The notes under the pieces are model-generated. The model ran no database searches, had not been told where the DNA came from, and saw only the letters and a list, made by a program, of their open reading frames with translations. The position numbers and the translations under genes were made by a program. From Zygnema cylindricum (Eukaryota; Streptophyta; Zygnematophyceae; Zygnematales; Zygnemataceae), in NCBI GenBank assembly GCA_037447655.1, contig JBBHKE010001242.1, forward strand, positions 62,001-126,000: a DNA stretch of 64,000 nucleotides, in the 5' to 3' direction. Shown here piece after piece: positions 11,076 to 40,600 of the stretch. Position 1 is the stretch's first letter. Each line of letters begins with the position of its first letter.

Positions 11076-11489
11076 CCATTCAGGTGAATTGTGGTTTGAT
11101 TTCTGTCATGAAGGCACCAAATTGCTTTTTCATCATGGGGGCCATCATGGCCTACAACTTTGCTTTTCCTTTTTTCGGCGAGAGATCTTAAGTAGAGTCA
11201 CCTTTTTTTCAGCCTTTTTAAAAGGAGTAACTGGCTTGACGAACGGGCTAGAATTCCCATGTTTAGAATTTTGTTTTAATGCGTGAAATTAAGGTCTTTA
11301 GCATGGCAATGGAGGACGTAATGTCTTTTCAACTAGCAATGGGTGCATGTGGCATAGTCACGCTTATTCTTTTCATGGTGTATATATATTTTCTGATCCA
11401 TTTTTATCCCTATTCATTTTCGTTGGTATATGAGTTTGTCCGCATGACTTTCATGGTTGTATTGCATGTTCGCTCCTGTTTCTCTCTCA

Positions 11490-13075
11490 TACACAACAAC
11501 CCTACTCTCTCAATCCCCCCTCTCTTTCCCTCTCTCTTTCTCTCTATCCTACTTTCTCAAACCCCCATCTCTCTCTCTCCATGTCTCTCTAACCCACCCT
11601 CTCCATCATTCTCCTCTTTCCATCCCCCGTCACTCTCTTTCTCGGTATCTCTCTATCCCCCTCTCTTGATCCACCCCTCTCTCTCTCTCTCTTTGTCTCT
11701 CAATCCCCCTTTTTTTAATCACCCTATATTTCATTTTCTTTGTCTCTCTATCCCCCTCTTTCTCTCTTTGTCTCTCTATCCCTGTCTCTCAATCTCTTCT
11801 TTCTCTCTTTTTGTGTCTCCCTATACCCCAATCTCAATCGCCTTCCTCTCTTTCTCTCTCCTTGTTCCTCTATACCCCTCTCTTGATCCCCCGTTTTCTC
11901 TCTCTTTGTCTCTCTATTTCACCATTTCACTCCTTGTCTCTGGATCCCCCACTCTCTATTCCCCTTTCTTGATCACCCCCCTCTCTCTCTTTGACTCTTT
12001 ATCCCCTTCTCTTAATCCCCTCATCTCTCTCCCTCACTCTGTCTACCTATCTTTGTCTCTCAATCACCCCCCTCTCTCTCTCTCTCTTTCTCTCTATCCC
12101 CCTCTCTCCATCCACCCCTCTCTTTCTCTCTCCTTGTCTCTCTATCCCCCTCTCAATCCCTCTCTCTTTCTCCCTTTTTCTCTATCCCCCTTTTTCAAAC
12201 CCCCCCTTTTTCTATCTCTCATTGTCTCTGTATCCCCCTCTCTCTCTCACCATATCCCCCTCTCTCTCACCATATGCCCCTCTCTCTCTCTCCTTGTCTT
12301 TTCATCCCCCTCTCTCGATCCCCTCCCTCTTTCATTCTCCTTGTCTCTCTATCCCCCTCTCTTATTCCCCCCTCTCTCTCCCTCTCCCTTTTTCTTTTTC
12401 CTACTCTCTAGAACCCGCACCTCTCTCTCTCCACGTCTCTCTAACCCCCTCTCTCAATCATCTCCCTCTTTCTATTCCTCCCCTCACTTTCTCTGTATCT
12501 CTCTATCACCCTCTCTCGATCCACCCCTCTCACTCTCTCTCTCTATTTATCTCTCTATCCTCTTTCTCGATCTTCCCCTTCTTTCATTCTCGTTGTCTCT
12601 TTATCCTTCTCTCTCAATCCACCCCTCTCACTCTATTCATCTCTTTTTCTCCGTATCTCTTTATCCCCATCTCTCGATCCACCCCTCTCTCTCTCATTGT
12701 CTCTCTTTCCCCCTCTTTTGATCACCCCTCTATTTCATTCTCTTTGTCTCTCTATCCCCCTCTCTCGATCCCCCCTCTCTCTCTCACACTATCTCTCTAT
12801 CCCCCTCTCTCAAATCGCCCTATCCCCCTCTCTCAAACCGCCTTCTATCACCCAGTATCTTTATCCCCCCTTTTCCATTCCCCCCCTTTCTCTATCTCCC
12901 TCCCTCTCCATTCCCCCGCTTTTTGTTTCTCCCTGTCTTGCTATCCCCCTCTCTCAATCCACCCCTCTCTCTCTCTCCATATCACTCTATGCCGTTCTCT
13001 TGATCCCCCCTCTCTCTCTCTCTTTATCTCTCTATCTCCCTCTCTTATCCTCAACTCATTTTCGTGCTACTTATG
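11490..13075. repeat. Pyrimidine-rich degenerate tandem array
   Basis: About 1.6 kb of almost pure C/T on the plus strand, built from variants of TCTCTCTATCCCCCTCTCTC alternating with GATCCACCCCTCTCTCT. Units are about 35-60 bp and poorly preserved. Long ORFs of Ser/Leu/Pro (for example 11279-12721) result from the absence of purines in stop codons and are not genes. Purine:pyrimidine mirror tracts of this kind can adopt triplex DNA. Confidence 0.85.
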
Positions 13076-13219
13076 GATTCCATAGGGTATCCTCACTATT
13101 TTCCGTCGAATCCTCCATTATTGTAGTCTTTAAATCGCATCAAATTTCCACATTAATTTTGGTTATCCTTCGGATGAGGTGCAATACCCATACTTATTTC
13201 AGTTTGGTTCCTTTCAATA

Positions 13220-13224
13220 TGGTG
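13220..13224. repeat. Left target-site duplication of copia-1 (TGGTG)
   Basis: TGGTG directly precedes the left LTR and is repeated at 20173-20177 directly after the right LTR. The 5-bp length is typical of copia integration. Confidence 0.9.
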
Positions 13225-14269
13225 TGAAACTCTGAGACCTCCATAAGTCCTCAGAGTGGACAGTTTCCAAGAAGCCTCTAGGATAATCCTGACCCCTTTG
13301 TGTTTCAGCAAAAATAACTGCCACCCTGGCAGACAAAAAGTTTGACCTCCAACACCTTTGTGAAGGCAAGACTCCCCTGAGTCGATAACAAAAAGAATCT
13401 TTGAATTTGCTCCCCTGAGCAGTAAGTTATGGAGGGTCAAAGTTGACCTTTTGTACTGAAGCTCTTTGGGAGAGAGGATCCTATCTCCTAATTTTTCTAA
13501 GTCTTATCTCTCTCACACACTCTATCTACTGATATACGGAACCAATCAGATTTCTCTTCCGCACACAAAAGTACAGTCGCCGGTGTACTTTATGTACGGA
13601 AATTGTACAACATGGCCTAAATGTCGACACATGTCATATCCGGATTCGGTGCCGTAATCTCCAAAGATACCACGATCGAATGTAAATTCGCCACGTGTCA
13701 TCTGATGTGGCGATGCCCACAAACGGCCGTATTCTTCTTCCGAGATCTAGGCGCTAATTCTAGCCGTCCGATTAAATTCACATTTGATCGGAGCCGTAAT
13801 AAATACATGCGCGGTATTTGTTTTGCTTTACGAAATCAATGCGCGGTATTGATTTCTTATCCGTACCGCAATTCCTACTTTTACACTACCGGTTCTATGT
13901 ATCCCGTAAACAATTATAGTTAAATGATTTATCCTACGTATTAATGATTAAATAGTTATCAAACTATGTAGTACGTAACACTACTTCAAGACTTAACGGT
14001 TAAGGTTACCGGCTATCGGCAGCTTGCCGTCCGGCATGTACCAGGTTCAAATCCTTTGGCCGCCGCATATCTTTTTACTTAATAAACCCCAAATATATAT
14101 TTCCCGTAAACCTCAGGATAGCCTAGGTAGCCATGGCTCTAGCTTCCTCTCCAATTTCTCAGTGACTGCGACAAGTTTGAGAGTTGGAGAGAGAAGTTAG
14201 AGGTAGACTGCCTCGGCTTCTTTCTTATTTCTAACCAAGAAAATACTTTAAAAACCATTAATTTCTACA
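13225..14269 (-). repeat. 3' LTR of copia-1 (1045 bp)
   Basis: On the minus strand it starts TGTAGAAATTAATGG at 14269 and ends GAGTTTCA at 13225. Its outer 60 bases are followed by TSD TGGTG. The centre (about 13995-14070, plus strand) carries a tRNA-like A-box/B-box pair with GGTTCAAATCC, antisense to the element. The same LTR family is present as a 298-bp short form at 25115-25412. Confidence 0.9.
13990..14070 (+). ncRNA. tRNA-like motif inside the copia-1 LTR (antisense)
   Basis: CTTAACGGTTAAGG looks like an A-box/D-arm. A GGCAGCTTGCC hairpin and the B-box GGTTCAAATCC follow within 75 bases. The stems are imperfect, so it is not a functional tRNA, but it could be a Pol III promoter or an absorbed SINE. 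A second copy lies at about 19893-19973 in the other LTR. The short LTR at 25115-25412 lacks this part. Confidence 0.4.
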
Positions 14270-14286
14270 CTCCCCTTATTTTCTAG
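14270..14286 (-). promoter_or_regulatory. Polypurine tract of copia-1
   Basis: The minus strand reads AAAATAAGGGGAG immediately before the 3' LTR start TGTAGAAA. This is the usual primer site for plus-strand DNA synthesis. Confidence 0.85.
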
Positions 14287-14393
14287 TCTATCTTTAATTT
14301 CAGACCACACTTCACCCTGCAGAAAATTAGCTTAGGGGTAGGCACAGGTTTGGTCATCATATGTGCTACCATCTCACTATCTGGTCGGTACTC

Positions 14394-14804
14394 TCATCTG
14401 ATTATTTTATTTTCTACTTTCTCTCTAACAAAGCTGAGTCTAATACCCATGTGTTTGGCTTTAAAATGATGTTTAGGATTGGCAGAAATATCAATTGCTG
14501 CCTGATTATCAAAAAATATTTTCTGCACACCACTGTTAAGGTGACCAAGCTCACCAAGCAAAGACTTGACCCACATCAATTCTTTTACAGCAGAGCAGGA
14601 GGCCATATACTTAGCCTCCCTGGTGGACTGAGCAATAACCTTTTGTTGTTTCCTGCTCCAACAGCAAGCCCCATCACCCATATATAATAGATATCCAAAA
14701 GTGCATCTCCTAATAGGAGCATCACCATAACTGGAATCACTCCAAGTGGTGATGTTAGTATTCTCCCCACCCAAATGCAACCATAGATCCCTAGTTCCTA
14801 TCAA
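14394..14804 (-). pseudogene. Copia-1 RNase H
   Basis: The frame contains TTWSDSSYGDAPIRRCTFGY, the first Asp of copia RNase H. Next come KVIAQSTREAKYMASCSAVK with the catalytic Glu, VQKIFFDNQAAIDISANPKH with the next Asp, and HFKAKHMGIRLSFVREKVE at the end. It is the C-terminal part of pol, cut from the RT frame (14832-16661) by a single in-frame TAG near 14832. It would degrade the RNA strand during reverse transcription. Its end lies about 110 bp before the polypurine tract. Confidence 0.85.
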
Positions 14805-14831
14805 GTATCTAAAGACTCTCTTAGCTGCCTC

Positions 14832-16661
14832 CTAATCCCTCTTATTGGGAGCATTTAGACTTCTACTCAGCACTCCTACAGCTGCAGCTAAATCCGGCCC
14901 GGTACAATTTATAAAATAGATTAGACTTCCCACTACTTGTCTGTAAGGAATAGTCTGCATAAACTTCTGTTCTTCAGGAGATAATTCCTCCGCTAAGACT
15001 ATGACTCCTTCTTCCTCACTCCCCTCACTTCCCTTCTTCAACTCCATTGAAGTTGTACAACTATTAGCTTTATCCATTTGAAATTTTTCAAGCATGTTCC
15101 CTATTGCTTCCTTTTGAGTCAATCTTATATTTTTTCTTTTTCGGTCTCTCTCTACTTGAATTCCCAAAATATATTTTGCTTCCCCCATATCCTTCATTTC
15201 AAATCTCCCCTTAAGATCGGTTTTCAGTTTATAATTTTTTTCCATTGATTTACTTAAAACAAGCAAATCATCAATATAAATTGCAATAAATATTAAACCT
15301 TCCTCTTCTTCGAAAACATATATTGAGTGATATGAGCTGATCGGGATATATCCTTCACCGATAAGAAACTCATCAAGCTTCTTAATCCAGTGTCGAGGCG
15401 CGTGTTTCAAACCATAAAGAGATATAATCAGCCGGCATACCTTACTCTCCTCTCCTTCCTCCACAAACCCTTCGGGTTGTCGCATGAACATCTCCTCTTC
15501 CAATTCTCCATGCAAAAAGGGAGTTTTGATGTCCATCTGGTGCACTTCCATATCTTCTGCTGGTGCCAGGCTAAGAAGTATGCGGATGAAGGGAAATCTA
15601 ACCACCGGGGCAAAGGTTTCCTCGTAGTCAATTCCCTCCTTTTGTGTAAATCCCTTTGCCACTAGTCGCGCCTTGTAGCGCTCGATTGTGTTATCTGGGT
15701 TCAATTTTAACTTGCAAACCCACTTACAACCGATTGGTTCTCGGTTAGGTGGACAATCCACCAGCTCCCAAGTATCGGCTGCCATAATTGAGGCCATCTC
15801 CACATTGATGGCTGTCTTCCACCGATTTCTTTCTGGACAAGTCATCGCCTCTCCATAAGTGTAAGATTCATCTTGATGAGATAGTTTAGTTACCTTGTTT
15901 TTAACCTGTTTTTCTTGCAGTCCTTTGCTACTTCTCCTTCCCCCCTCAAAATCTGAGGCCGGTATAGATGGTTCTTGTGGATTCTTTCGAACAAACTCGG
16001 CTTCTCCCCTATCCCTTGATTCCGAATCAATTTCCACCACGTCTTCCGCTTCGCGTAGAGCTGTCACTGGAGTTTCCACAACCAAGTCCTTTTCGGTCTG
16101 ATTTGTACCTGCAAGAATGTCATCTTCTCTAAAACCTGGATAGTTAGGAAACTCAAAGTCATCAGAATTTTCTGACTCAAATCTGATTTTTACTGACTTC
16201 GTATATTTGAAGGGATCCACAAACTTTCCTTCATCCATAACTACTAGATGCTTTACTAAGATTATATCTTCCCTTTTTAGATCATAAACCCTATATCCTT
16301 TAACATCCTCATCATATCTTAATAAGTATCCCGGTTTTCCTTTAGGATCTAGCTTCCAATTAGACCGATCTATACCTAGACTCAATACTTGACTGTCGAA
16401 AACCTTTAAGTGAGATATGTCTGGTTTCCAGCCTCTCCATCTCTCATAAGGTGTTTGATCTTTTATAGCTGAAGTAAGAACTCTATTTTTGAGGTAATTA
16501 GCATTGTTCATTGCTTCTGCCCAAAACCTTTTTCCTATCTTCTTATCTGACAACATACTTCTAACACTATCACTTAGTGTTCTATTTAACCTTTCAGCTA
16601 CCCCATTCTGTTCTAGATTTTCTAGAACTGTCTTTTGGTGTTGGACCCCATCTTCCCTCAT
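14832..16661 (-). pseudogene. Copia-1 integrase C-terminus and reverse transcriptase
   Basis: This frame is open for 609 codons. It opens in the integrase (QNGVAERLNRTLSDSVRSML, containing the catalytic Glu of DDE) and continues through the integrase C-terminal region and an acidic linker. The RT begins with TWELVDCPPNREPIGCKWVC, has [40 protein letters not shown] and the catalytic FIAIYIDDLLVLS box. It ends with copia-type TIPYRQVVGSLIYFINCTGP. The integrase part upstream (16662-16938) is broken by frameshifts and stops. The length is normal for a copia IN-RT block. Confidence 0.9.
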
Positions 16662-17457
16662 AAAATCCTCAAACTAGTTAGAATTATACTCTCCACCATT
16701 GTCACTCCTTACTCTTTTGATTGGAGTTTCATGGAGTTTTTCGCTCTTGTCTAAAACAATCCTGATCTTCTGACTGGTTTTTCAAAAAATACACCTGGGA
16801 ATACTGAGACCATTCATCAGTTATAGTCATCATAAATCTCTTCCCCCCCGGTGAGGGCACTTTAGCCGGTCCCCAAATATCTGTGTGTACTCAATCTAGA
16901 ATTTTTTCTCCCTTAAAGTTGGCTTTTTTAGGAAAGGGTTACCTTTGTGCTTTACCTTGAGCACATGCACTACAATCACTTATATCATCATTCTCACTGA
17001 ACTGAATCCCTTCCACCACTCCCATCTTTTTCATCTCTTTTAACTTATCTAGATTCTTATGCCCAAGCCTCTTATGCCACATCAAAATATCATGAACATG
17101 AGCATAATAAAGTTTCTTCGTTTCGTTACTTAAAATCAGCCTAAACATCCCATGGCTACCTTTCTCAGTAATGAAATAGACATCCTCCTCAAAACTAGCA
17201 GTAAAGACTCTTTCCCTAGTGCTAGTGAAAAAACCCTTATCATCTAATACAGATGAAGAGATAAGGTTTTTGTTCAGCTCTGGAATAAACAATACATCAG
17301 AGAATGTTAATATTGATGTCTTTCCTTCTACTAACACTTTCAAATCTACCGATCCTACAAGAGTAGTAGTGACTATCCTCCCATCCCCGTACTCTATCTC
17401 TACGATGGGAATTTTTCTTATCTTAGTGAACAGGTGCCTATCCTTACACATGTGCAT
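16662..17457 (-). pseudogene. Copia-1 protease C-terminus, gag-pre-integrase and integrase N-terminus
   Basis: The frame 16939-17457 opens within the protease and contains a gag-pre-integrase domain with the zinc-binding pattern (MWHKRLGHKNLDKLKEMKKM ... CSACAQGKAQ, an H-H-C-C finger). From 16938 to 16662 the minus strand still shows integrase words such as RSDNGGEYNSN and LKCPHRGG, but in shifting frames with stops. The integrase core is therefore the most decayed part of this copy. The upstream protease and nucleocapsid lie at 17458-17704. Confidence 0.8.
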
Positions 17458-17704
17458 GGAGGCACCTTAATCTATAATCCAACCTGCTTCACCTTTCAAT
17501 CCACCGTAAACACATTTCTGCCTTCGTGGAATTTTGACCTCATTTTTCGCCTCCAACTCCTCATCCAAAAGAAGCTCATCGTCCTCATCCTCAGATTTCG
17601 CCTCATGTACCTGTGACACGAGGGCCTTTTTCTTTCCTCTCGAGGTACTACCGATCTACCCCTCTTTTAACCGAAGCTCGGTTAGCTTAGTGCACTCCGC
17701 CATG
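17458..17704 (-). pseudogene. Copia-1 nucleocapsid/protease junction
   Basis: Between the TRIM and the protease frame the minus strand encodes a short basic and acidic stretch rich in Glu, Asp and Ser (LLLDEELEAKNEVK and similar). It follows the second half of the interrupted gag zinc knuckle (AECTKLTELRLKEG near 17650-17703) and ends in a stop near 17655. The order fits the segment between the CCHC knuckle and the D-S-G protease of copia. Confidence 0.5.
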
Positions 17705-17932
17705 TGTTGGATTGGCACGTGAAGCCGGTCCAATACGGGGTAGAATATGGAAATATCCATACTCGAGCCGCCTGTAATAAATGGGTACAGACCCGCCAGT
17801 CTCAACATCGAGCTGGTGGCACAGTGGTAGTGCGTTCGCAGCTGAAGTGAAAGGTCCCAGCTCCGAACCCTGGCCGGCTCAATTTTCCCAAGTGTGGGAC
17901 ATGCCGAATCCCGGATTTCTTGGAAATCAACA
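17705..17932 (+). repeat. TRIM 5' LTR (228 bp)
   Basis: It starts TGTTGGATTGG and ends GGAAATCAACA, next to the primer binding site. The tRNA-like unit is 105 bases from its start. Confidence 0.93.
17810..17880 (+). ncRNA. tRNA-like unit in TRIM 5' LTR
   Basis: A 71-nt cloverleaf with paired acceptor ends GAGCTGG/CCGGCTC, a D-arm with CAGTGGTAG loop, and a T-arm damaged in the loop (AGCTCCGAACC instead of AGGTTCGAACC). It is the same as the copy at 18095-18165 except for about three bases. Confidence 0.75.
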
Positions 17933-17945
17933 TGGTATCAGAGCC
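17933..17945 (+). promoter_or_regulatory. Primer binding site of the TRIM
   Basis: TGGTATCAGAGCC directly follows the LTR. It is an exact complement of the 3' end of plant initiator tRNA-Met. Confidence 0.92.
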
Positions 17946-17980
17946 AGCGGGATATCACATGGTTTGACCGGCTTTCCCGT

Positions 17981-17989
17981 GAGGGGGGG
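17981..17989 (+). promoter_or_regulatory. Polypurine tract of the TRIM
   Basis: GAGGGGGGG stands directly before the second LTR start TGTTGG. Confidence 0.88.
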
Positions 17990-18217
17990 TGTTGGATTGG
18001 CACGTGAAGCCGGTCCAATACAGGGTAGAATATGGAAATATCCATACTCGAGCCGCCCGTCATAAATGGGTACAGACTTGCCAGTCTCAACATCGAGCTG
18101 GTGGCACAGTGGTAGTGCCTTCGCAGCTGAAGTGAAAGGTCCCAGGTTCGAACCCTGGCCGGCTCAATTTTCCCAAGTGTGGGACATGCCGAATCCCGGA
18201 TTTCTTGGAAATCAACA
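17990..18217 (+). repeat. TRIM 3' LTR (228 bp)
   Basis: Same length and ends as the 5' LTR, followed directly by TSD CCATG (18218-18222), which also precedes the 5' LTR (17700-17704). Confidence 0.93.
18095..18165 (+). ncRNA. Intact tRNA-like cloverleaf in TRIM 3' LTR
   Basis: The 71 nt fold by eye as a full tRNA. There is a 7-bp acceptor stem GAGCTGG/CCGGCTC with one G-T pair, then U8, a D-stem GGCA/TGCC with CAGTGGTAG loop, a 5-bp anticodon stem TTCGC/GTGAA, a 5-nt variable loop AGGTC and a T-arm CCAGG-TTCGAAC-CCTGG. A-box and B-box (GGTTCGAACC) are canonical. The anticodon loop AGCTGAA has G instead of the universal U33, so decoding is unlikely. D-loop, variable loop and B-box look most like plant tRNA-Cys from memory. 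It probably works as an internal Pol III promoter, if at all. Confidence 0.82.
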
Positions 18218-18218
18218 C

Positions 18219-19147
18219 CATGTAGTGCCACAGTTTCTACAAAAATGACTTAAACCTTTGGGAGCCCTTGGTTCGAACTCATCGGCCTATTTTTTCTGCT
18301 CCCTACTCCCATAGTTTCCGGCTGGTTTTCGAGAATCCTTGTTTTTCCAATCACTCGATGTTGCCAAGGCTTGGCCACTCTTTCCTCCCCTTCGGATCTC
18401 AATCATATTCTCTCGAACGAGAATCATCCCTACCACTGAGTTCCATATCCACCTTCAGTCCGGCAAGTCCTGCACACGGTTGACTATGTTCTCGTACTCA
18501 TCAGGTAACTTCATCAGTAAACAGTTAACCTTTTCTTTTTCACTAAAATCTTTTCCCGCACTCTCTAGCTCCATGAAGAGTGTAGCAAACTCATTACAAA
18601 AATCCAACATATTTCCCCTTTTGTATGCATACTCCTTAACTTTCTGATTAGCCAACTGTTGTTGCTGAATCGTACCACTTCGGTACATCTTTATGAGAGC
18701 CGTCCAAAGATCAGATGCCCTTTCTACCTGCAAATGAGGACATGCAAGTCCTTGAGTGAGATGGCCTAGGATGAAGTGCTTTGTCGCCATATTGTTGAAG
18801 TTCCTGGTTTCAGTATCATTCTCCTCGTTTCTCGGAATAGGTGACATGAATGCCGAACCAGTAGCTATTGGTGGGGTCGTCTCCTTCTCCTTTCCTTTGT
18901 CCACCACCTCTCCTTCTTTTGTTTCCTCCGTTGAAGGTGGATCCTCTTTCCTGGTGAATCTGCTTCCTCCTAACCCTGGAGGAATTCCAAGACTTGATGG
19001 ACGCCCCAACCGTCCACTCACTATCCCCCAAAACCTTTTTTCGCATAGAGCTCCTATCATCATACTTTCCCAGTATATGAAGCCAGTTCCATTTAAGATT
19101 GGTACCCTAGAGGGTGGGCCTATAACCTGAAACTTTGAGACCTCCAT
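18219..19147 (-). pseudogene. Copia-1 gag, starting inside the LTR, knuckle split by TRIM
   Basis: The ATG at 19145-19147 lies inside the 5' LTR; the sequence MEVSKF is encoded by the LTR and the frame runs on as QVIGPPSRVPILNGTGFIYW. The copia gag domain follows (GHLTQGLACPHLQVERASDL, LANQKVKEYAYKRGNMLDF, LLMKLPDEYENIVNRVQDLP; residues about 120-230). The open frame ends near 18455. A zinc knuckle begins CRNCGTT at about 18225-18245 and is cut by the TRIM. Copia-2 gag has the same start plan, with the block QVTGPPSQIPVFNG directly after the LTR. Confidence 0.8.
19113..19127 (-). promoter_or_regulatory. Primer binding site of copia-1 for a half tRNA-iMet
   Basis: Directly next to the LTR the minus strand reads GGTTATAGGCCCACC. 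No TGG complementary to a tRNA 3' CCA is present. The plus strand GGTGGGCCTATAACC matches 14 of 15 bases of the anticodon-stem/loop region (about nt 25-39) of plant initiator tRNA-Met as I remember it. This is the site and fragment known for Drosophila copia priming. The sequence is also gag coding. Confidence 0.7.
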
Positions 19148-20172
19148 AAGTCCTCAGAGTGGACAGCTTCAAAGAAGCCTCTAAGATAATCCTGACCCCT
19201 TTGTGTTTCAGCAAAAATAACTGCCACCCTGGAAGAAAAAAACTCTGACCATCTTCACCCCTATGAAGGTAAGACTCCCTTGAGTTGATAGCAAAAAGAA
19301 TCTCTGAATTTGCTCCCCTGAGTAGTAAGTTATGGAGGGTCAAAGTTGACCTTTTGTACAAAAGCTCTCTGAGAGAGAGAATCCTATCTCCTTATTTTTC
19401 TAAGTCTTATCTCTCTCACACACTCTATCTACTGATGTACGGAACCAATCAGATTTCTCCTCCGTACACAAAAGTACAGTTGCCTGTGAACTTTATGTAC
19501 GGAAATTGTACAACCTGGCCTAAATGTCGACACATGTCATATCCGGATTCGGTGCCGTAATCTCCAAAGATACCACGATCGAATGTAAATTCGCCACGTG
19601 TCATCTGATGTGGCGATGCCCACAAACGGCCGTATTCTTCTTCCGAGATCTAGGCGCTAATTCTAGCCGTCCGATTAAATTCACATTTGATCGGAGCCGT
19701 AATAAATACATGCGCAGTATTTGTTTTGCTTTACGAAATCAATGCGCGGTATTGATTTCTTATCCGTACCGCAATTCCTACTTTTACACTACCGGTTCTA
19801 TGTATCCCGTAAACAATTATAGTTAAATGATTTATCCTACGTATTAATGATTAAATAGTTATCAAACTATGTAGTACGTAACACTACTTCAAGACTTAAC
19901 GGTTAAGGTTACCGGCTATCGGCAGCTTGCCGTCCGGCATGTACCAGGTTCAAATCCTTTGGCCGCCGCATATCTTTTTACTTAATAAACCCCAAATATA
20001 TATTTCCCGTAAACCTCAGGATAGCCTAGGTAGCCATGGCTCTAGCTTCCTCTCCAATTTCTCAGTGACTGCGACAAGTTTGAGAGTTGGAGAGAGAAGT
20101 TAGAGGTAGACTGCCTCGGCTTCTTTCTTATTTCTGACCTAGAAAATACTTTAAAAACCATTAATTTCTACA
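19128..20172 (-). repeat. 5' LTR of copia-1 (1045 bp)
   Basis: On the minus strand it runs from TGTAGAAATTAA (20172) to AAGTTTCA (19128). It contains the gag start codon 20 bases before its end and the antisense tRNA-like motif at about 19893-19973. TSD TGGTG follows at 20173-20177. Confidence 0.9.
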
Positions 20173-20177
20173 TGGTG

Positions 20178-20689
20178 CTGCTTATGGATGATATCCGGTA
20201 TATCCACACTAATTTTGGTATGAAACTCTCAAATAAGACGATATCTACTCCGACTCATCTTTCAATCTTTGTCTGGTTTTGGTCCGCTTCTCCCTTTTGA
20301 AAATGGCCGCCGTAATGTTGTCGTTGTTACCACAAATCCGCTTTAGTATCCACACTATTTTGGTACACTAAGTAATAAAATTCAAATGTTTTTCATATGC
20401 TCTAACTACAGTAGTTTTGGTCCGGTTCTTCCTTTTGGATTCGAGGCAATGGGGTCGCATTTTTAACATTTTAATGGGGTGTTTTTGGCGTTGTTGCCTA
20501 GTTCTGAACCAGTATAAACACTATTTTCGGTACATGAACAAAAATATTTTCTATTGTTATTTGTATCGGAAAAAAAGAAAGTCAACCATCACATCCACAC
20601 TAATTGTGGTGTGCAATTCTTAAGAAGTCTGACCGGATTCGCTCTTTTTTTTTCTCATTTTTTACTTCTTCTTCCTGTTTTGAATCAAA
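20178..20689. other. Diverged repeat stretch right of copia-1
   Basis: No gene. Phrases such as TATCCACACTA-TTTTGGT and TTTTGGTCCG-TTCT recur three times at irregular distances. Related phrases occur left of copia-1 (13080-13190), so copia-1 inserted into a pre-existing repeat. Confidence 0.5.
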
Positions 20690-21360
20690 CTACAGTTTAC
20701 AAAACTGAAAAACTGCATAACTGAAAAACTAAAAAACTGAGAAACTAGAAAATTGGAAAAATGGAAAACTGAAAAACTGGAAAACTGAAAGCTGAAAAAC
20801 TGAAAAACTGGAAAACTGAAAAACTCGAAAACTAAAAAACTGCAAAACTGAAATACTGAAAAATTGAAACTGAAAAACTGAAACTCTGAGAAACTGGAAA
20901 AAAGAAAACTGGAAACTGGAAAACTGAGAAACTGGAAAACTGAAAAACTGAAAAACGGAAAACTGGAAAAACGGACAAACTTAAAAAGGGAAAAACTGGA
21001 AAAACTTGGAAAACGGGAAACTGAAAAAAAGGAAAAACGGCGGAAAAACAGAATGACGGGAAAAAAAAAAAGCCTGAAAAACAATAAAAATTGGGAAAAC
21101 TGGAAAAACTGAAAAACTGAAAAACTGGAAATCGGAAATAAGGAAAAACGGAAATAGGGAAAAACGGAAATACATAAATAAGGAAATACGGAAAACCTCA
21201 AAAACTTGGAAAATTCGAAAATGTAAAAACTGGAAAACGGAGAAACGGAAAAAGGGAAAAAGGGAAAAAGGGAAAATTTGGCAAAACTAGAAAAACTTGG
21301 AAAACTGAAAACTTGAAAACTGGAAAACTGAAAGACGGAAAAACGGAAAAACGTCAAAAC
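20690..21360. repeat. Purine-rich minisatellite, AAAACTGAAA-type units
   Basis: About 670 bp of 8-10-base units (AAAACTG, GAAAAACTGG, GAAAAACGG). The plus strand is almost free of T except in the ACTG unit. A 231-codon Phe/Ser ORF on the minus strand is a by-product and not a gene. Confidence 0.9.
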
Positions 21361-21523
21361 ACCTTGGTTATCTAGTGTCGAACTTTTAGGTCTGAATAGA
21401 GTTACAAATCAGTTTTAAAATGCTACGACTTTCATTGATAGATTAGGGGAATTTTTACTGGGAATTGGTCATGGCAGTGACTTTTGGTTGCGCACAGTCA
21501 CTTACGTCACTTTCTCAAAGATT

Positions 21524-37666: not shown

Positions 37667-40600
37667 TCACAAGGCTGCTCCCATGGTGAAAGGATCATGC
37701 TGATGCCTCGTCAGAGCATGGTGACGGAGAGACGAGAAGTCCCTGAAACTCGTCCTCCTTGGAGAGGACCCGAGCGACTCCCTCCATGGAAGCACTTCAG
37801 CGCAAAGCAAACAGCGAAACTGCAGCCAGAACTGCAAAACAAACCTTAGTACAGGCCACGCAGCGATGTACTAGAAAGAGAATGTTCCTTATCTAAATAT
37901 TGTTTCACCCACTAGTTGCTCCCAACCATATGCATGAAAAATGATAACAGTCAGCGTAACAAACTACTTGTTTACATAATGTTTTACAATTCCAAACTCA
38001 GTAAGTTAAAGTTCCAGGGTAACAAACATGGTCAAGTTTTCCACTTCCTTCGCATATAGTGTGCTAAGGGTTTACAGGTCTTGTTTGGGTTTTTCAAGCT
38101 AAACTGAGATGCATTGACGTTTTGCCCTCAGAACAATTTCTTTCCTCTGCAATTCCTACCAAACATGCTCCACCATGCAAATAGAAACAAGAAAATGTAC
38201 AGCTTAAAAACTCCTTCAGATTGTTTTGATGTCTGTATAACAAACTAAAATGAAGTACCGTGAAATCACCACAAACAGAAGATTCATTTCCTATTGAGCT
38301 TTTACTCCCTGTATTTTTGTTCCGTTTCAACTCAGCTCTCCTTACTTCTTAGGGTGATGTAGTATTTGAGGAGCAAACATTAGTTGATATGCATAGAGTA
38401 GAGGTGTATACTGCTTAACGTTTGCATAAAATTTACCCCAGCTTGAGAAGGTCCTTCAAATTACAATTGACGCAAAATGTAACAAAGGGAGATTTACAGA
38501 CTTGACTTCCCGTTATTTAGCGTTTAGCATTTCATTCTCATCAAAGGGGGGTCAATGGCCGAAAAAGGTGTGGAATTGGCATTATCACCTAAACAACATT
38601 GGATCAAGCTAAACAAGGCGAAACCAATTCCTTCAAAAGCAAAAAGTAGCTGTAACACCACGGTTACAGCTGTTGACGAGGTGTATGCGTAGCCCAGAAC
38701 CTCATTAAAAGCATGGGGCACACTAATCTGCGCAGTAAGGATGGTTTGAGTACCCAATGGAAAGCAGGAGGTCAAGGATCAAACAACACAGAAAATTGCT
38801 TGCTCTCAGAAATGACCTGCAGATAGAAAGTAGACACCAATCACCTCATAGCTCACTACTTGAATGTGGCCCATCAGCATGTTCCTACTTTGGTTGAATG
38901 CTCCAACAGAAAAAATACCAAAACCTATTTAGCCTAAGGTTAACAACAATAACATCGCTTTCCTTGTGCCTAAGTAAGTCTTCCTCTATACAATGCCCAA
39001 TCACCTCAATCGCTCCCCCTTCTTGACAAAAAATCCATGTGCTCCAACAGTGAACATATGAATATTTTTACCTTTGAAAGACTTTATTTTGAGGTACAGT
39101 CAGAAAAAGGTGACCCACGTACAACGATTCGCTACCACTGCAGGAAGTACACTATGGTAAATTTCACATAACAGTACGGAATAACAATTGTAATGCCAAT
39201 CTGAACTAGGAACGGCATCCAATACCTACGTGGAGAATCCGGATATCAATAAACTACTTGCCGAACATAACCAAGCTAATATAAATAAAAGTATAGATTT
39301 TGGATCGTTGGGGAGGACAAGACTCCTGATATTAAGCCTTGACAAAACATATTTTTAACGTTTAGTGCAACTGAGGGTTGAAGCACCCATTTTCTGCTCT
39401 CAATCATAAATGCCCACTAGCAGAATTCAGTCGCGAGTCACTTTCATAACCATGGACACCTCAGACGCTGAAATCCATCTCTTCATAAAAAACTCATATA
39501 AATGCCCAGATAATTCATAGCTTTCCATATTGGGTGCAGGTAGCCAATAAGAACCTGACATCTAATTGAAGGTCAAGATTTTACCCCTCGTGAATATAAC
39601 CAGCAACAAGGAGATTGTTCACTGACCTCCGATCCAGGAGGCCCATCCCTATCGTATGATCGAAACGCAGGAGGAGAGGGATTAAACACTTGACGCCGCC
39701 ATCCTGCAGAATGCATGTCACTTGACGAACTGCCGCCATGCATGACATCATAAGTAGATCCGAGCGATGGTCCTGGTAGGCCATCCGCCTGCCCTGAGGT
39801 GAGAGGTGAGAGTCCAGACATGGGTCCCATACTACTCGAAGTGTATGAATCCCTTGGAGACCTGGACCTCTCTACTTCCCAGGCATCTGGCTGGGGAACT
39901 TCTGCTCTCGCCGTTAACCCGAGAGCTTCCGCGCGCCATCTCCAATCCCTGACGGGCATTCCGACGCCAACACCCCCTTCATGTCCTGATAGCCTACTGC
40001 TTCCACTCAGTTGTCTGCTAGGCTGCTCGGGAGACAACCCCCTTCGTCCATGGAAAGCACTGCCTCCATAATTAGGGCGCAAATTCCGGCTAGGAGGCCC
40101 TCGGAAATTATTTTGAGCTGACTGCTGCAAATTCCTTAGGAGTGGAGACCGGCTTTGTCTCAAGCGATAAGATGAATCGTCAATCCAGTTCGTCGGACCA
40201 GATTGTGCTGCTCCAGGTAAGTACACCCCGGGCAGCTGATGGCCCTCCATTTCCATGGAGCCATGACGCCTGCTGGAGAGGCCCAGAAAGCACATGATTA
40301 GATGCAAAACAAAAACAAGATTGCAAACGGATGTGAGTGATGGGTCCACAACAGATACACTAGAAGACAACTAATGGAAGCAAAACCAGTGAAGTTTGAA
40401 AAAAAAAAAAAGTCAGCATGACTCCCAGGAACTTTCCTGCAAACTTGATGTTGAGAAAGACCAGACAAGGTTAAATAAAGCAAGGCAGTGAGGATGAACA
40501 AAACACTAGTTTGTCAATGGTAGATGTTATTTATCTGGTTAACCTGGTGTGAACAAACTACTTCTGTGGCATTCATGCAATTTACTGAAGGATCAAAGTC

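Follow-up and report, generated by a model that had tools for sequence, protein, structure and literature searches.

A Helenus-type TRIM of Zygnema cylindricum whose LTRs carry a tRNA-like unit

The window analyzed here, a stretch of 64,000 nucleotides from Zygnema cylindricum, carries on its forward strand, at positions 17705-18217, a 513-bp TRIM made up of an LTR, a short interior and a second LTR. Repeat comparison delimits the two LTRs, each of 228 bp, at 17705..17932 (5′) and 17990..18217 (3′); their termini are TG...CA and they are identical at 220 of 228 positions (96.5%). The 57-bp interior between them (17933..17989) opens with the PBS TGGTATCAGAGC (17933..17944), which we take to be the initiator tRNA-Met word, and closes with the G-rich polypurine tract (PPT) TGAGGGGGGG (17980..17989). 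Flank comparison identifies the pentanucleotide CCATG on both sides as the TSD (17700..17704 and 18218..18222), the left copy also being seen at the empty Copia sites described below. An earlier note on the same DNA had reported the LTRs and their length, the PBS, the PPT, the interior and the CCATG duplications, and the sequence bears these out. The ORF list of the window holds no ORF of at least 150 aa overlapping the element.

Each LTR contains a tRNA-like unit at an offset of 105 bases, as the earlier note had recognized; it measures 72 nt with the discriminator base counted, a correction of the 71 nt given there. The unit of the 3′ LTR (18095..18166, +) is intact, as had also been claimed: it alone is called by ARAGORN and by Rfam (RF00005, 50.5 bits), all 21 pairs of its four stems are present, and pattern matching places an A box TGGCACAGTGG at 18102..18112 and a B box GGTTCGAACCC at 18145..18155. 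Its anticodon loop, AGCTGAA, reads CTG (Gln), with a base other than U at position 33. The 5′ unit (17810..17881, +) differs from it by three bases, two of them within the B box (17861 and 17863), and is predicted to fold differently. Compared to shuffled sequences, the intact unit does not fold with unusual stability (z -1.50; 17 of 200 shuffles were as stable); it is the covariance model and the two boxes that support the tRNA call. Rfam searches of the element at E up to 1 returned only the tRNA and one weak miRNA match, with no match to 5S rRNA and none to a hammerhead ribozyme, the Retrozyme criterion.

The TRIM sits inside a Copia element on the minus strand (13225..20172), defined by its LTRs (13225-14269 and 19128-20172, 96.5% identical) and by domain matches to gag (18455-19153) and RT (14832-16673); the insertion lies between gag and the Pol_BBD/GAG-pre-integrase region. 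We searched the genome with the left flank of the insertion, scored the best 40 of 3040 candidates and fetched 20 loci, one of which was the window itself and was left out of the count. In all 19 other Copia copies the site was empty and the flanks joined with a 2-5 base overlap; this overlap at unfilled sites bears out the 5-bp TSD. The 228-bp repeat at 96.5% identity, the exact TSD, the 19 empty sites and the hundreds of copies described below together go beyond chance and confirm the window element as a genuine TRIM whose LTRs contain a tRNA-like unit.

The host Copia family itself seems to be very abundant, a 205-bp piece of it having drawn 3040 first-look candidates, of which 40 were scored. 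Its RT protein showed 33-48% identity to the best 120 matches listed, in plants and others. A B-box-like CAGGTTCAAATCC occurs in both Copia LTRs (13995-14070 and 19898-19973, +), on the strand opposite to Copia, and is perhaps part of an old tRNA-derived insertion in the LTR of that family. Elsewhere in the window, at about 7045-6975 (-), an A-box-like TTGCCTTAATGGATAAGGC and a B-box-like CGGTTGAAATCC give the look of a tRNA-derived SINE; Rfam at E up to 1 made no call there. Two long open tracts of low complexity, one CT-rich (11267-13227, +) and one TTC/TTT-rich with 8-nt steps (20661-21408, -), do not look like genes. A protein search with the ORF at 39573-40370 gave no match at E 0.001 or better among 1439 candidates, while the best-scoring match in the MULE protein search reached 41%, with matches in plants and fungi. 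PsaD is present in two copies in the genome; its top PDB match is a three-fold repeat chain (9vfj_D), and its best single-domain match is 6igz_D (257.5 bits), with 9xj1_D (255.8 bits) and several others close behind. We take PDB entry 6igz to be from the green alga Bryopsis and 5l8r from pea. On this basis, the host belongs to the green lineage.

To place the element within its family, we searched the whole genome (352,776,454 bases, 352.8 Mb) with the full element, tRNA part included. The best 40 of 963 first-look candidates were scored and gave 49 matches. Thirty loci and a further 15 stretches were sampled which, once L021, L023, L025, L027 and L045 had been dropped as overlapping, left 40 distinct places, a set skewed to close relatives of the query. 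The earlier note had suggested a search for further copies with two LTRs: 35 of the 40 insertions are such elements, and the parallel to Cassandra that it drew, with a tRNA unit inside the LTR of a TRIM, extends to a large family of the same structure. LTRs are identical in six of the 35 (L003, L005, L006, L007, L008 and L010), indicating that the family was active recently, and the window copy, whose LTRs differ at 8 positions, belongs to the most diverged in the sample. With up to two mismatches allowed, a word from the junction between interior and 3′ LTR (PPT/LTR) had 280 matches in the genome and a 25-nt word from U5, at the LTR end, had 579; the reversed control had none. The ratio of about 2 suggests that solo LTRs are few, and the two words may decay differently. 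A scan for the element's pattern gave no match in viral contigs and, in genome contigs, 11 prokaryote stretches that we take as chance.

Several family members form arrays of 3 or 5 LTRs with shared interiors, the array on C683 comprising 5 LTRs and 4 interiors. A single outer TSD pair surrounds those on C683 (CTCAC), C346 (ATACT) and C1088 (CTTGT). The array at L041 (C2060) is irregular, with a partial LTR and spacings that do not correspond to one interior, and has the outer TSD GTCCG; that at L004 (C2373) is cut at both ends and has no TSD. Cassandra and further TRIMs of plants are also described as forming tandem arrays (PMC7215508, PMC4717578).

Such arrays would fit a tandem SINE, or a chance duplication, taken for an LTR element, and the earlier note had named tandem SINE units with neither TSD nor PBS as an outcome that would overturn its interpretation. 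This was not what we saw. Both PBS and PPT are present in all 32 interiors checked, and the last 14 nt of the interior, which include the PPT, are identical in every one of them. The PBS is exactly TGGTATCAGAGC in 6 interiors, TGGTATCGGAGC in 22 and TGGTATCAAAGC in 4, each variant being one change off; the TGGTATCGGAGC form could still pair via G-U. Exact 5-bp TSDs flank 31 of the 40 distinct insertions (23 of 26 and 8 of 14 in the two samples), the exceptions being L004, L008, L011, L031, L032, L034, L035, L038 and L043. Together with the TG..CA ends, the empty sites and the single TSD pair lying outside each of the arrays on C683, C346, C1088 and C2060, these data refute the tandem SINE or chance duplication, whose probability we regard as negligible.

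The earlier note had also considered that the tRNA-like part might be missing from most members. It was not missing in the members examined, which had been fetched with a tRNA-bearing query. ARAGORN finds a tRNA-like unit in 30 of 30 fetched loci (26 distinct places), with at least two per locus except in L001 and L002; most are read as tRNA-Gln and one array unit as tRNA-Ser. Of 86 complete LTRs, 83 have the A-box pattern, 82 the B box and 79 both, while TTTT occurs at LTR positions 171-190 in 85 and accompanies both boxes in 78. All 21 cloverleaf pairs are present in 67 of these LTRs, one is missing in 17 and two are missing in 2. The anticodon loop AGCTGAA (CTG, no U33) is found in 82.

Runs of T act as Pol III terminators, and their position in the element is consistent with such a role. 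In the window copy, TTTT follows the 5′ unit at LTR position 179 (17883..17886, +) and lies one base past the 3′ unit (18168..18171, +), where it is the sole run of four or more Ts in the 285-nt LTR-plus-interior unit. In the family, all but one of such runs in the first 57 LTRs are at LTR position 178-180, and 32 interiors contain none. Among 5000 dinucleotide shuffles, 53% had no T4 and 39% had exactly one; a single T4 being so common, little weight can be given to the scarcity of T runs. What stands out is the place alone, as a T4 fell within about 3 nt of the unit end in just 1.1% of the shuffles.

Since T runs terminate Pol III and the T4 stands at the end of the unit, the simplest reading is that transcription would start in the 5′ unit and stop in the 3′ LTR. 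We propose, with a probability of about 0.6, that the element is a Helenus-type TRIM transcribed by Pol III from its LTR tRNA-like unit and mobilized by the proteins of an autonomous element. RNA polymerase III would initiate in the 5′ LTR, at its tRNA-like unit, and some transcripts would pass the TTTT of that LTR, traverse the interior and end at the TTTT of the 3′ LTR. The tRNA-like unit would then be R, with about 75 nt, preceded by a U3 of 105 nt and followed by a U5 of 46 nt or so. The proteins of an autonomous LTR element would reverse-transcribe this RNA, with initiator tRNA-Met as primer, and the same proteins would integrate the product. Judged from the sequence, Pol III transcription of the element is likely and the tRNA-like unit is probably its promoter. 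Cassandra provides a precedent, in which transcription begins in the 5S unit and ends in the 5S unit of the 3′ LTR (PMC10886601). Against this model, the T4 of the 5′ LTR is expected to stop part of the transcripts ahead of the PBS. The nine insertions without a TSD, and the choice of copies from the best-scored 40 of 963 candidates, also count against it.

A less probable reading, but one that deserves serious consideration, is that of an ordinary TRIM transcribed by RNA polymerase II, whose tRNA-like unit is a passenger that arrived when a SINE or tRNA inserted into one of the LTRs and that retrotransposition then multiplied. Compatible with this is a weak ATAAAT, 33 nt upstream of the unit at LTR position 73. 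So too is the conservation of the boxes, for which we saw no clear excess among the young copies (86 LTRs): minor calls per site per 100 LTRs amounted to 0.53 in the A box, 0.85 in the B box and 0.79 in the whole unit, compared to 0.91 in U3 and 0.87 in U5. As the variation in the boxes is hardly below that in U3 and U5, the young copies give no proof of promoter constraint. A mere passenger, however, would fit less well with the number of LTRs in which both boxes (79/86) and the full cloverleaf (67/86) are intact, or with the location of the window unit's sole T4 at the end of the tRNA-like unit. In published relatives, moreover, both boxes are retained from family to family (PMC10886601).

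The completeness of the cloverleaf, with its 50.5-bit match to RF00005, and the tRNA-Gln call in 30/30 fetched loci raise the question of whether the element disperses working tRNA genes, its tRNA part being kept by host benefit; among Helenus, a few families from bivalves and fungi might encode a tRNA (PMC10886601). We consider this very improbable here. A CTG anticodon without U33 makes a working tRNA unlikely, and the loop AGCTGAA, with its non-U position 33, is that of 82/86 LTRs. The unit has only 38-42 positions in common with three host tRNA-Gln genes, and 62 of the 63 listed genome tRNA matches score above 50.5 bits. The LTR unit thus hardly looks like a usable tRNA. Its cloverleaf might nonetheless act as RNA, in addition to any promoter role, so that tRNA mimicry would determine where R starts and stops or how the transcript is packaged. 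RNase P/Z, export or packaging factors would in that case recognize the LTR unit, in which the seven acceptor pairs are retained. We hold this to be unlikely. To our knowledge, tRNA mimicry that shapes the RNA of an LTR element is known for neither Cassandra nor published Helenus; if true, it would be an unfamiliar route to LTR-element RNA formation.

The source of the unit was sought among 20 host tRNA genes hand-picked from 63 listed (24,620 first-look candidates), a set from which initiator-Met was absent. The best alignments, with Arg-CCT, Cys-GCA and Asn-GTT (the last with 16 gaps), each had 50 of about 73 positions in common. With no better agreement than this, we name no donor tRNA; the tRNA-Cys suggested by the earlier note does no better than the other two, and the anticodon is that of Gln. 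The tRNA-like unit was unconvincing as a primer for its own element (7 of 13 positions anchored at the 3′ end, CCA included). As for an autonomous partner, the host Copia was set aside, since by eye it seems to have a different PBS. A minus-strand Gypsy has TGGTATCGGAGC at 6177-6166, upstream of its gag (together 6177-5629), the same PBS variant as in 22 of 32 TRIM interiors; the sequence that follows looks, again by eye, unlike the TRIM interior. This is a possible hint to the primer type of the partner.

TRIMs with tRNA-derived sequence in their LTRs were named Helenus by Kojima in 2024 and grouped with Cassandra and Ajax as TRIMp3 (PMC10886601). The parallel design put forward in the earlier note is real, and its class had already been published. 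By its structural features, our element is assigned to Helenus, the comparison with named families being by description only: it has two LTRs, tRNA sequence in the LTR, a PBS, a PPT and a 5-bp TSD, and its 513 bp fall within the 311-1263 bp reported for Helenus (PMC10886601). It resembles the elements described there in being a short non-autonomous LTR element whose tRNA-derived LTR part contains both boxes, in a 5-bp TSD like that of the plant and fungal members, in disagreement over isotype and in tandem arrays, reported there for LTR-11_DR. It differs from the sole plant listed in that paper, Selaginella moellendorffii, in its dimensions (LTR 228 vs. 120 bp, interior 57 vs. 85 bp). Its box A has TGGCA where most Helenus have TRGCY, the Y being replaced, whereas TGG (YGG) and the box-B GGTTC agree (PMC10886601). 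It also has a full 21-pair cloverleaf, whereas the predicted structures of Helenus are said not to support tRNA function; the same account argues for several origins and describes Pol III transcription as not validated (PMC10886601).

Cassandra is likewise a TRIM with a small-RNA gene in its LTR, a TGGTATCAGAGC PBS, a word that forms part of the Cassandra search pattern, and tandem arrays (PMC7215508). It carries 5S rRNA, whereas the window element has a tRNA-like unit and no 5S match. Ajax, also a TRIM whose LTR includes a promoter sequence of Pol III type, contains part of 5S rRNA and was found in two nemerteans (PMC10886601). Ordinary plant TRIMs (Gao 2016) have a similar size, the same LTR-interior-LTR layout and common arrays; the main text of that paper does not use the word tRNA and describes no tRNA unit (PMC4717578). 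tRNA-derived SINEs also have boxes A and B in a tRNA-like head, but are without LTRs, PBS and PPT and integrate by target-primed reverse transcription (PMC10886601). Our searches of the open PMC literature turned up no further report of a plant TRIM whose LTRs hold a tRNA unit. What is possibly new is a high-copy, recently active Helenus of the green lineage in which the cloverleaf is complete and a terminator of Pol III type is present.

For genomes of this kind, tRNA counts may be inflated, as ARAGORN calls a tRNA in most LTRs of the 30 loci. Beyond this, a green-lineage family with hundreds of copies, including members with identical LTRs, makes the claim of Pol III transcription directly testable.
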